Positions 4,108 to 60,311 of a DNA stretch of 64,000 nt are shown one piece after another. A model generated the notes under the pieces. It made no database searches and was not told where the DNA came from. It saw only the letters and a list, made by a program, of their open reading frames with translations. Both the position numbers and the translations under genes were made by a program. Numbering within the stretch: position 1 is the first letter of the stretch; every line of letters begins with the position of its first letter. Source of the stretch: Leuconostoc mesenteroides subsp. mesenteroides ATCC 8293 (lineage in GTDB: Bacteria; Bacillota; Bacilli; Lactobacillales; Lactobacillaceae); contig NC_008531.1 in the NCBI RefSeq assembly GCF_000014445.1, forward strand, positions 1,457,001 to 1,521,000. The letters run 5' to 3'.

Positions 4108-4191
4108 GCGGATATGGCGGAACTGGCAGACGCGTACCGTTCAGGTCGGTATGGTGGCAACACCGTGCAGGTTCGATTCCTGTTATCCGCA
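4108..4191 (+). tRNA. tRNA-Leu (anticodon CAG)
   Basis: The 84-base sequence folds as a class II tRNA. The 7-bp acceptor stem is GCGGATA with TATCCGC, and the D arm follows. The anticodon stem TACCG/CGGTA encloses a loop with CAG at positions 34-36. A long variable arm (GGTG/CACC) and a T arm with TTCGATT complete it. The discriminator is A and CCA is not encoded. The long variable arm and the anticodon fit leucine, decoding CUG. Confidence 0.95.
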
Positions 4192-6612: not shown

Positions 6613-7755
6613 TTAAATCATCTCCAAGTGCAATTGTTGTGGCTTTGCCCAACCCATTTTACGCATGAAACGATAACCAACAAATGAAACAATCACGGGA
6701 ACACCTACACCGATAATCATGTAAGCAGCAAATGCAGCAGGATTTGAACCAGCCAATGCCAACGGAACGATAAATGAATTAAATCCAATACCAGCCATTG
6801 AGAAAGGTGCAGTAACATTAAACGCGATTGTTGCGATTGGTGCAGCAATTGCTGCGCCAATCATTGGTGGAATAATCAAGGCAGGATTTTCAGTCAAATT
6901 TGGAAATTGAATTTTTGGTGTAACAATACCTTGAGCAATTGTTGCGCCAATTTTATTTTCATGAAATGACATTGCAGGGAAGCCAACGAATACAGCCGTT
7001 GTACCGATTAAGATTGCTCCTGCAGCCTCTGGTGAAGTTACACCCGTTGCACCAATTGCCACAGCTAAAGCTGCTGCGGAGGCTGGTGTCATGGTCATTG
7101 CACCAAAGGCCATTGCAACAATGGCTGTACCAATAATTGGATTAACTGCAACACTCGAAGCAATAAACTTTCCGATTGCGACCAACGCCGGTGTCGTAAC
7201 AGCTGCCAAGTAGTACCCTGACACCGTGCCAACAATTGTGGTCGCCGCTGGTACAATGACCATATCTAATGGTGTCTTACCACTCAACCACTTACCAAAC
7301 AATACGGCAATCACACCAGCCATAACAGCTGAAATTGGTTGTCCAGTGGTCATTATAGCTGAACCAGCAGCTTGTGCACCAGCGTATCCGGTTGCTGTCA
7401 CACCCTCCACGGCTTTATCTGTGAAGAAAACAGCGTTAGCACCAACCGCTGAGGCAGCCATCGCACTAAACATAACCATTGTATTCGTTTTCATTTGTGA
7501 TGCAATCGCGGCGCCAAATGCTGCTGGTAACATAATTTTAGTGATTGCACCCATTTGGACCATCGGTGCCCAGTGGATGAATCCTGCAATCGTTTGCAGC
7601 AATAATCCCATACCCAAGGTAACCAAAATGGCGTTTGAGACAGCTGCACTGACTTTATAAACAGTGTCACGAACTGACTCCTTTTCTTGAGCTACTTTTT
7701 CTTTAATTTGATCTGTATCAATTTTATGTTGTGGTGTAATTGCGTTTTGTGCCAT
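6613..7755 (-). CDS. PTS EIIC-like membrane protein (PF13303/PfoR type)
   Basis: This 380-residue protein has about ten hydrophobic segments rich in Gly, Ala, Met and Thr. It matches the PTS_EIIC_2 family, which includes the Clostridium protein PfoR. A short charged cytoplasmic N-terminus (residues 1-35) precedes the membrane part. Neither EIIA nor EIIB domains, nor sugar enzymes, are nearby, so sugar phosphotransfer is doubtful. The ATG at 7755 has AGGAGA at good spacing. The gene stands alone between two terminators behind a leucine leader-peptide attenuator, which suggests a link to amino-acid status. Substrate unknown. Confidence 0.8.
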   Translation of the reverse strand: MAQNAITPQHKIDTDQIKEKVAQEKESVRDTVYKVSAAVSNAILVTLGMGLLLQTIAGFIHWAPMVQMGAITKIMLPAAFGAAIASQMKTNTMVMFSAMAASAVGANAVFFTDKAVEGVTATGYAGAQAAGSAIMTTGQPISAVMAGVIAVLFGKWLSGKTPLDMVIVPAATTIVGTVSGYYLAAVTTPALVAIGKFIASSVAVNPIIGTAIVAMAFGAMTMTPASAAALAVAIGATGVTSPEAAGAILIGTTAVFVGFPAMSFHENKIGATIAQGIVTPKIQFPNLTENPALIIPPMIGAAIAAPIATIAFNVTAPFSMAGIGFNSFIVPLALAGSNPAAFAAYMIIGVGVPVIVSFVGYRFMRKMGWAKPQQLHLEMI

Positions 7756-7811
7756 GTTATTTCTCCTGTTTAATAACTTAATTCCAATATGAGCTACTAA
7801 CAATCGTTGAG

Positions 7812-7927
7812 AAAAATAAAACGTCCCAACGATTGCTCGTTAGGACGTTTCCTACCTAACCAGCTACTCTGACTCTTTTAGTAAAGTCTAGTAGCTGATT
7901 ATTGCTCAAATAACAACCTACTAGACT
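7812..7927 (-). promoter_or_regulatory. Leucine attenuator: competing stems and terminator
   Basis: In transcript order, segment A (7927-7918) pairs perfectly over 10 bp with B (7894-7885). B (as 7897-7890) can instead pair over 8 bp with C (7868-7861). C plus the following bases (7864-7855) can pair at nine of ten positions with 7844-7835, the 5' arm of the terminator. The terminator has a 13-bp stem with one wobble (7849-7837 with 7832-7820), a 4-nt loop and a T-rich tail. A overlaps the leader stop codon, so a ribosome there favours B:C and termination. Stalling at the leucine codons favours A:B and read-through. Confidence 0.78.
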
Positions 7928-7989
7928 CAAATGAGAAGGAGGTTGAGGAGGAGTGCGTTATTTTGATGTGCTTGTACATTTTTAGCCAT
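7927..7989 (-). CDS. Leucine-rich leader peptide (20 residues)
   Basis: The ORF begins ATG GCT AAA and ends TGA, with GGAGA six bases upstream of the start. Leucines occupy codons 13-15 and 17-19, five as CTC and one as CTT, so all depend on the leucine tRNA that reads CTY, uncommon codons in this AT-rich DNA. It follows a near-consensus promoter by about 50 bases and leads straight into competing hairpins and a terminator, the classic leader-peptide layout. Confidence 0.8.
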   Translation of the reverse strand: MAKNVQAHQNNALLLNLLLI

Positions 7990-8039
7990 GATGCGTCTCC
8001 ATTTTTTGAGCGAATTACTCGCTTGTTTCTATGAGTAAT

Positions 8040-8068
8040 AATATACCCTAATAACATTTATATGTCAA
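8040..8068 (-). promoter_or_regulatory. Promoter of the leucine leader and EIIC gene
   Basis: The minus strand has a perfect TTGACA (8068-8063), a 17-base spacer and TATATT (8045-8040). Confidence 0.88.
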
Positions 8069-8108
8069 TACTTTTTTATAAATCTAATAAAACTCTCCAA
8101 AACTATAG

Positions 8109-8114
8109 TATAAT
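8109..8114 (+). promoter_or_regulatory. Candidate -10 for the 8135 gene
   Basis: A perfect TATAAT lies 20 bases before the start codon. No clear -35 is seen 16-18 bases upstream. Confidence 0.4.
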
Positions 8115-8134
8115 AAACAAGGAGGAAAAATATT

Positions 8135-8455
8135 ATGAAACAGATATTTCAATTTATTGGGGCCGTGGTTACAGCGATTATTGGGCTGTTAATTTTGATT
8201 CCTGTCATTTTAACAATTATTGGCGTAGCAGTTCCGGTCGTACTTAGCATTATTGGCATTGCACTCTTCGTTGCCTTAATTATAGCTGCTGTTGCTGGCA
8301 TTATTGGCTTAGTTGCATTTTGGCGTTTCAGAAAAAATATCAAAGATAACGAATTTGAGTTTGTTAGAAATGGTAAACATTTCAACATACATATTAGTAA
8401 GGACGGTACCAAGGTAAACCATCGACGTGATGTAACAAATGACGATGAAGATTAA
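8135..8455 (+). CDS. Small membrane protein of unknown function
   Basis: This 106-residue protein starts with about 65 residues of nearly unbroken hydrophobic sequence rich in Ile, Val and Ala, probably two membrane segments (about 6-30 and 36-64). A basic boundary (WRFRKNIK) and a charged, soluble C-terminus ending in an acidic run follow. AAGGAGG precedes the start. The gene overlaps the next by 17 bases, so the two are probably translated together. I do not recognise a family. Confidence 0.75.
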   Translation: MKQIFQFIGAVVTAIIGLLILIPVILTIIGVAVPVVLSIIGIALFVALIIAAVAGIIGLVAFWRFRKNIKDNEFEFVRNGKHFNIHISKDGTKVNHRRDVTNDDED

Positions 8456-59543: not shown

Positions 59544-60311
59544 TCATTCTTTTTTGGTTAACTTTCGCCACTGAATAATACCGTATATAGCATTGACAGA
59601 TAAGGCGAGGTTCATACCTAACATAGCAAACGCACTAGGATCCGCATGTCCCGTCCAAGCACGTCCCCACAAAACAATTTCGACTATATCAAAGAGTAGC
59701 CAAGCATACCATGATTCCGCAAACTTTGCGGTTTGCAGAATTTGAGCCCCCATTGATATGGTTGTTGTCAATCCATCCATGTACGGTTGTCTTGACCCAG
59801 CCTGATGTAAAATCATACCAACAATCACTAATATAACTAGGAATACTGGGATAACTAGAAGCCATTGTTTGAAGGTCATATATTTAGTCGCTACCACATC
59901 TTGACTGTCTTTTTCTGATAAATTATCGCGTTTCATAAAGCCAAGCCAAGCTGCAACACCAACAAATTGCATAACAACCCAAAATGCACTTAAAGCAACC
60001 TCACCAAACAACTGTGACTGAAAGGCCAATGGCATGTACATAACAGAATAAATCAGGCCCCAAAAATAATTTGTTATACGACCCTTGGCGACCAATACAA
60101 CAGTGATAATGTTCATCATCCCGGTTGCCAAGCCAAACCAATCGAGCGTGCTATTGTGAACAACACCCAGTGTCCAAACTAGTAATTGCAGTAAAATCAG
60201 TACTAAAAACAATACACCTTCAGCCCATTTCCAGCCAAATAACAATTCTTTGAAAATGTTCACGGGGTTAAAGTAGCGCCAAAAACGATGCCAGACTGGT
60301 TCCTCAACCAT
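59544..60311 (-). CDS. pnuC: Nicotinamide riboside transporter PnuC
   Basis: PnuC facilitates uptake of nicotinamide riboside, trapped by NadR phosphorylation. The 255-residue protein has about seven membrane helices, rich in Trp, with the family segments 'TNYFWGLIYSVMYM' and 'ESWYAWLLFDIVEIVLW'. GGGAGA lies before the start. A 7-bp hairpin (TGAACAT/ATGTTCA, 59528-59546) sits at its stop codon before nadR. Confidence 0.93.
   Translation of the reverse strand: MVEEPVWHRFWRYFNPVNIFKELLFGWKWAEGVLFLVLILLQLLVWTLGVVHNSTLDWFGLATGMMNIITVVLVAKGRITNYFWGLIYSVMYMPLAFQSQLFGEVALSAFWVVMQFVGVAAWLGFMKRDNLSEKDSQDVVATKYMTFKQWLLVIPVFLVILVIVGMILHQAGSRQPYMDGLTTTISMGAQILQTAKFAESWYAWLLFDIVEIVLWGRAWTGHADPSAFAMLGMNLALSVNAIYGIIQWRKLTKKE

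Follow-up and report, generated by a model that had tools for sequence, protein, structure and literature searches.

Organization of the region upstream of EIIC-1

We analyzed a 64,000-nt stretch of the Leuconostoc mesenteroides subsp. mesenteroides ATCC 8293 genome (NC_008531.1, positions 1,457,001 to 1,521,000), hereafter the window. On its minus strand lies a gene for a protein of the PF13303 family, which we call EIIC-1. Upstream of it are a promoter-like site, a short ORF preceded by a Shine–Dalgarno (SD) element, and an intrinsic terminator situated between this leader ORF and the gene (Table 1).

Table 1. Features of the EIIC-1 locus (window coordinates)
Feature	Position	Strand	Remarks
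Promoter-like site	8068-8040	minus	consensus match only
-35 TTGACA	8068-8063	minus	
-10 TATATT	8045-8040	minus	
Shine–Dalgarno GGAGA of leader ORF	8000-7996	minus	
Leader ORF, 20 codons, MAKNVQAHQNNALLLNLLLI	7989-7927	minus	
Segment A	7927-7918	minus	pairs with B 7894-7885
Segment B	7897-7885	minus	7894-7885 with A; 7897-7891 with C
Segment C	7867-7855	minus	7867-7861 with B; 7864-7855 with D (antiterminator)
Segment D, terminator 5' arm	7851-7837	minus	7844-7835 pairs with C in antiterminator
Segment E, terminator 3' arm	7832-7818	minus	followed by ATTTTT
EIIC-1, PF13303 PTS_EIIC_2, 380 aa	7755-6613	minus	start ATG 7755; AGGAG at 7767-7763

A preliminary description of this DNA had proposed a near-consensus promoter, a 20-codon ORF with a ribosome-binding site, and six leucines at codons 13–19. 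Each of these was recovered. The promoter-like site has 11 of 12 consensus matches and a 17-nt spacer between -35 and -10, yet such matches are not enriched in the region (2 found versus 2.5 expected from shuffles). Leu codons 13–15 lie at 7953-7945 and codons 17–19 at 7941-7933; codons 13, 14, 15, 17 and 19 are CTC and codon 18 is CTT. Because window ORFs of 180 aa or more use CTC for only 56 of their 1602 Leu codons, the probability of at least five CTC among six Leu codons, the leader having 5/6, is about 3e-7. Among the 79 SD-preceded short ORFs of the window (12–32 codons), two have at least six Leu (or Ile plus Val) within their last ten residues: the EIIC-1 leader and one at 59989.

Folding of the leader RNA gave a minimum free energy with z = -6.55, and 0/200 shuffles were equally good. 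The A:B, B:C, C:D and terminator helices were confirmed, in these predicted structures, as mutually exclusive. A:B (10 bp) and C:D (nine pairs in ten) have the lengths and positions first reported. The terminator, earlier given as 13 bp, is contained in a stem of 15 pairs, G-U included, with a loop of 4. The B:C helix is likewise present, but we count its core as 7 bp where 8 bp had been given, a difference that comes down to the choice of endpoint because the computed fold extends the core.

We compared the locus with known RNA families. The preliminary description had raised possible membership in the Leu/Phe leader RNAs of lactic bacteria. The corresponding family, RF01743, has no match in the window at the gathering threshold and is absent from the six Rfam matches up to E = 10 in 7700-8200, which argues against that assignment as far as the Rfam model can tell. 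Control of EIIC-1 by a T-box, or by any other RNA family already known, has a negligible chance and is already refuted at Rfam's sensitivity: although relatives have T-boxes nearby, such as those after EIIC-1 in Fructobacillus locus L054 and before brnQ-2, the T-box covariance model (RF00230) has no match at the EIIC-1 locus, no other Rfam family lies there, and T-boxes are missing before PF13303 genes in the relatives' loci examined. A T-box before PF13303 genes was sought as a candidate arrangement and rejected, with none at the gene in 15 loci, nor at the PF13303 loci among 20 sources; T-boxes were found elsewhere (L054, L046). The one in L054 (6240-6467, plus strand; RF00230, 96.4 bits) precedes an apparent amino-acid ABC transporter gene.

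Predicted response of the leader to ribosome position

The arrangement suggests the following switch. With ample charged tRNA-Leu, the ribosome would reach the leader stop codon and cover A; B:C would then pair, the full C:D helix would be blocked, the D:E terminator would form, and EIIC-1 would stay untranscribed. Under a shortage of charged tRNA-Leu, it would wait at Leu codons 13–17 and leave A free; A:B would pair, C would be released to D, the terminator would be blocked, and EIIC-1 would be made.

To model ribosome positions, we assumed that the ribosome edge lies 13 nt past the first nucleotide of the codon in the A site. A stall at Leu codon 13, 14, 15 or 17 leaves A uncovered, a ribosome at codons 18–19 covers A partly, and one at the leader Ile or stop codon hides A largely or completely. 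We then folded, at equilibrium (kinetics could differ), the RNA left uncovered as far as the end of D. For the window, the stalled fold contains A:B and C:D. The released fold contains B:C and a short local hairpin in D, and the long C:D helix is absent. Read-through at low charged tRNA-Leu is thereby predicted from the ribosome positions and the two folds; together with the anatomy, these models favor the leucine attenuator originally proposed.

Predictions for other leaders were more varied. Of the 17 Leuconostoc-type leaders, 11 have A:B in their stalled minimum-energy fold and 6 do not; several keep the inner C:D pairs in the released fold. Stalling raised antiterminator pairing by >0.5 bases in 26/31 Leu and 16/24 Ile leaders, and lowered it by >0.5 bases in 2/31 and 6/24, respectively.

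Conservation and covariation of the leader

We built a covariance model, R1, from 17 Leuconostoc-type leader sequences. R1 found the EIIC-1 leader in 19/19 Leuconostoc genomes searched. The 32 distinct EIIC-1 loci encode 26 distinct Leu-rich leader peptides, which end in (A/T)LLLNLLLI or near it in Leuconostoc and Periweissella, and have ALLLSLL-like ends in Fructobacillus and Convivina. Leu residues are kept while their codons differ by group (mostly CTC versus mostly TTG). Two sequences, L014 (masked N) and L024, were left out of the Leu alignments (A1 and A2).

For the terminated state, 98.6% of cells are paired across the 17 sequences, and five pairs show two-sided changes (0/500 shuffles). 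For the antiterminated state, 96.6% of cells are paired, with one two-sided change (26/500 shuffles). The L007 leader is a case in which A-B and B-C partners co-vary and the single C:D mismatch is repaired. A comparison across Leuconostoc for covariation and Leu codons had been put forward in the preliminary description as a check; the Leu run proved to be kept and compensatory changes were seen, not the loss of either that would speak against leucine control.

The antiterminator C:D is statistically the weakest helix. In 36 of 43 representatives, drawn from all leader classes, the region ahead of D beats shuffles (p < 0.05), whereas the C:D duplex does so in 10, the window not included; L064 and L200, in which the segment is too short, were left out of the C:D test. 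We also paired each C with foreign D arms. Own pairing had a median quantile of 0.13 and fell in the best tenth in 21/43 representatives (Wilcoxon 4e-7, an optimistic value because the representatives are related). This comparison shows apparent co-evolution, with C following D across the leader family. These data bear on the idea that the locus terminates part of transcription constitutively, without leucine control, its ORF being there by chance or in decay. The window's own C:D duplex, unexceptional versus shuffles (p = 0.27), would fit such an element. But the presence of the leader in every Leuconostoc genome searched, the compensatory changes in the terminated state, the retention of Leu despite the codon change between groups, and the C-D co-evolution make it very improbable.

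EIIC-1 and its neighbors

EIIC-1 matches PF13303 at 224.5 bits (cut-off 28.9), and its nearest named relative is from Leuconostoc litchii (93%). Its fold is that of glucose/maltose EIICs. The protein has no EIIA or EIIB domain, NCBIfam has no name for EIIC-1 or for its paralogue EIIC-2, and a PDB search by sequence found no relatives up to E = 10.

In relatives, EIIC-1 has livK, brnQ or an APC permease as a neighbor. Thirteen named Leuconostoc loci could be read past EIIC; a livK-like gene starts 25–40 nt after EIIC in 7 of them, and brnQ lies about 1.1 kb upstream in 6. No BCAA gene adjoins EIIC-1 in the window's genome. A tRNA-Leu gene (anticodon CAG) lies at window positions 4108-4191 (+), 2.4 kb past the end of EIIC-1. 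The preliminary description had called an EIIC target unexpected. The target is indeed of EIIC type, but it is less surprising than it seemed, because BCAA transport genes are nearby in relatives and the paralogue has an Ile/Val leader.

Could the attenuator be real and EIIC-1 be a conventional permease for a sugar or another carbon source, tuned to leucine supply? Its PF13303 membership and clear glucose/maltose-type fold would fit, but we consider this unlikely, given that Leu versus Ile/Val leaders are specific to the paralogue, that the relatives' neighbors are those above, and that EIIA and EIIB domains are missing from the protein.

Enzymes of 2-oxo/2-hydroxyacid metabolism adjoin other PF13303 genes. 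Within the order, each of the 30 PF13303 loci with the highest scores (L094-L123) has such an enzyme next to it on the same strand: PanE/ApbA, a D-lactate dehydrogenase type, or 2-oxoacid dehydrogenase E1/E2/E3. These loci belong to another subfamily than EIIC-1, and the enzymes are named for lactate, ketopantoate, pyruvate and oxoglutarate, not specifically for branched acids. The D-lactate dehydrogenase-, PanE/ApbA- and pyruvate/oxoglutarate dehydrogenase-type proteins found there lend some weight to a reading in which the leader answers leucine and EIIC-1 carries another 2-oxo/2-hydroxy acid (lactate, pyruvate, ketopantoate), tied to BCAA synthesis only via metabolism. We regard that as improbable, since the EIIC-1 and EIIC-2 loci read have no such neighbor and have BCAA transporters instead.

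Judged by regulation and neighborhood, EIIC-1 most likely serves BCAA supply and carries leucine or its 2-oxo/2-hydroxy acid, not sugar. The locus as a whole is thus probably one of ribosome-mediated leucine attenuation of transcription, acting on an EIIC-fold carrier for a BCAA or its 2-oxo/2-hydroxy acid. What the analysis shows is the anatomy of the leader and its conservation, a few compensatory changes, co-evolution of C and D across the leader family, the members of that family and the gene neighborhood; the response to leucine, the folding kinetics and the carried substrate are inferred.

Leaders of paralogous carriers and BrnQ permeases

EIIC-2, the second EIIC paralogue of the window's genome, is 43–44% identical and has the Ile/Val leader MKSLSSTNFTQVIKINVVIII. 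The brnQ gene of this genome also has an Ile/Val leader, MTYQSATTEQIIISIIIIR. We made an EIIC tree of 71 rows, left after identical proteins were removed from 95; the program warns of long branches. Ile/Val-rich leaders precede 19/19 members of the EIIC-2 clade (19 rows, 100/100). The EIIC-1 clade (38 rows) comprises 33 members with Leu leaders and 5 tandem copies with Ile leaders, the latter forming a nested clade (EIIC-1b, 99/99). A tandem EIIC copy occurs in six genomes (G039, G072, G073, G100, G126 and G150). In a search of 40 genomes, an EIIC-2 match of at least 56% was found in 30 and a doubtful one of 49% in another (G067); none of the six genomes with a tandem copy had a match, and three more genomes had neither. 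Because the Ile-leader clade is nested and EIIC-2 is absent from all genomes with the tandem copy, these data suggest that, after duplication, the copy went from sensing Leu to sensing Ile and stands where EIIC-2 is missing. We grade this as suggestive because independent lineages are few. L090 was left out of the Ile set, although the sequence upstream of it is very similar to that at L068.

EIIC-1-like genes of other lactobacilli (L025-L031, L060, L070, L071) are without a clear leader, and several of them have a TTCTCAT..AATTTTAAT-like stretch right after the -10 region. The tree's basal lactobacilli (L027, L029-L031, L071, L073) received automatic leader labels under a loose rule, and these labels look spurious; the one at L072 may be genuine. 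At L072 (G130:C1:154200-158000), a 30-codon ORF rich in Ile, which has an SD and possible hairpins, lies in front of an EIIC gene outside the Leuconostoc group and is perhaps an independent leader.

Two kinds of brnQ were distinguished. Genes like brnQ-1 (at least 60% identity) have an Ile/Val leader in 15/19 loci and a T-box core in none. Genes like brnQ-2 (about 50% identity or less) have a T-box core in 10/11 loci, and the eleventh lies at a contig end. The leader peptide at brnQ-1 is seen at L075, L162, L163, L170-L172, L192-L195, L197, L198 and L200-L202, and the T-box core at brnQ-2 at L154-L157, L159-L161, L191, L196 and L199. Within one bacterial family, these paralogous permeases thus appear to use two sensing systems, leader peptide versus T-box core.

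Related leaders before leuA, suf and NiCoT genes

R1 matches in the window's genome comprise the EIIC-1 leader and three further places. The first is the Leu leader MRNQATVQTNITNAALLLNLLRLP (E = 2.9e-4) of a leuA-type gene, whose best NCBIfam match is 2-isopropylmalate synthase (547 bits, under the cut-off of 697); apparent leuB, leuC and leuD, named by eye, lie downstream. A Leu/Ile leader, MNKNIKKLNNILIILLIS, stands before an HTH gene and a suf (Fe-S assembly) cluster (G000:C2:2006276-2000208; L175:2473-4117, minus strand). SufC of this cluster scores 362.7 bits, over the cut-off, and the remaining suf genes were named by eye. The suf cluster is followed in the same region by the leuA leader and the leu genes. 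A Leu/Tyr leader, MNKTIKKMNYSLLYLLLS, stands before a NiCoT nickel/cobalt transporter gene (L174:4160-5185, minus strand; also L148-L153 and L180), the product of which matches NicO at 267.6 bits.

Counting the window's genome each time, the leuA leader match was read in 6 genomes, a match before the HTH gene in 6 (suf was seen only in the window's genome), and a match before NiCoT in 7 Leuconostoc genomes, the peptide being read in two. A Leu leader, MMTNTIQLQNQKAFQVLLLNLNTFK, occurs once before an OppA-type peptide-binding protein gene (SBP_bac_5; L188, G455:C8:4600-6100). Upstream of ilvB in the ilvB-ilvC-ilvA genes of the window's genome, we saw no leader, and L190 has no convincing one. 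R1 matches outside the family (G001, G003, G202, G213; E 1e-4 to 3e-3) look like chance, judged by the downstream ORFs. The notion that NiCoT feeds a Ni-dependent hydroxyacid racemase was dropped, as Lar_N (PF09861) was found in 0/19 Leuconostoc genomes.

A wider reading has, in our estimate, an even chance of being right: that PF13303 holds non-PTS EIIC-fold carriers for BCAAs or branched 2-oxo/2-hydroxy acids; that the Leuconostocaceae wired such carriers, BrnQ, LeuA, suf and NiCoT to the charging of tRNA-Leu or tRNA-Ile via a family of leader-peptide attenuators; and that a duplicated carrier went from Leu to Ile where the older Ile-controlled paralogue is missing. If true, a carrier family annotated as sugar PTS would gain a testable substrate class, suf would supply the pathway's Fe-S dehydratases, and control of Fe-S assembly by leucine would be an unusual wiring. 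Branched-chain hydroxy acids of such bacteria matter to food and health (PMC8924213).

Comparison with known systems

As far as the literature search shows, what is new are the targets (EIIC-fold carriers, suf and NiCoT), their related leaders, and the change from Leu to Ile after duplication. The search turned up no earlier description of a leader in front of this EIIC or of suf in Leuconostoc, a weak negative given that subscription papers were mostly outside it. Within one Firmicute genus, several BCAA-linked genes are preceded by leader peptides, not T-boxes, with a T-box at brnQ-2, and the tandem EIIC copies would be a natural case of an attenuator changing its sensed amino acid after gene duplication.

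In the enterobacterial leu, ilv and his leaders, ribosome stalling on cognate codons picks the alternative helix, and the targets are biosynthetic operons. The EIIC-1 leader resembles these in its proposed stalling-based choice of helix, but it uses CTC, whereas the E. coli leu leader is rich in the Leu codon CUA. The Leu/Phe leader RNA RF01743 of Lactococcus lactis is likewise from a lactic acid bacterium and is named for leucine (PMC2864571); the EIIC-1 leader differs in having no Rfam match. T-box leaders of Firmicutes respond to uncharged tRNA and regulate genes for BCAA transport; they differ from the EIIC-1 leader in binding tRNA directly, with no leader ORF (PMC2494555). On the protein side, the glucose and maltose EIICs PtsG and MalT are about 15% identical to EIIC-1, which differs from them in having no EIIA/EIIB domain and in its control and neighbors, both of which point to BCAAs.

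The RNA mechanism is classical, and leucine leaders are already known, also in Gram-positives, as described for the Leu-rich leader attenuator of the Staphylococcus aureus ilv-leu operon (PMC5794164). Compared by their described features, the two leaders share a short Leu-rich ORF, a terminator and an antiterminator predicted to exclude each other, predicted read-through at low leucine and a Gram-positive host. The EIIC-1 leader has an extra segment pair (A:B, B:C) before the antiterminator, and the target is a biosynthetic operon in S. aureus but an EIIC-fold carrier here (PMC5794164).
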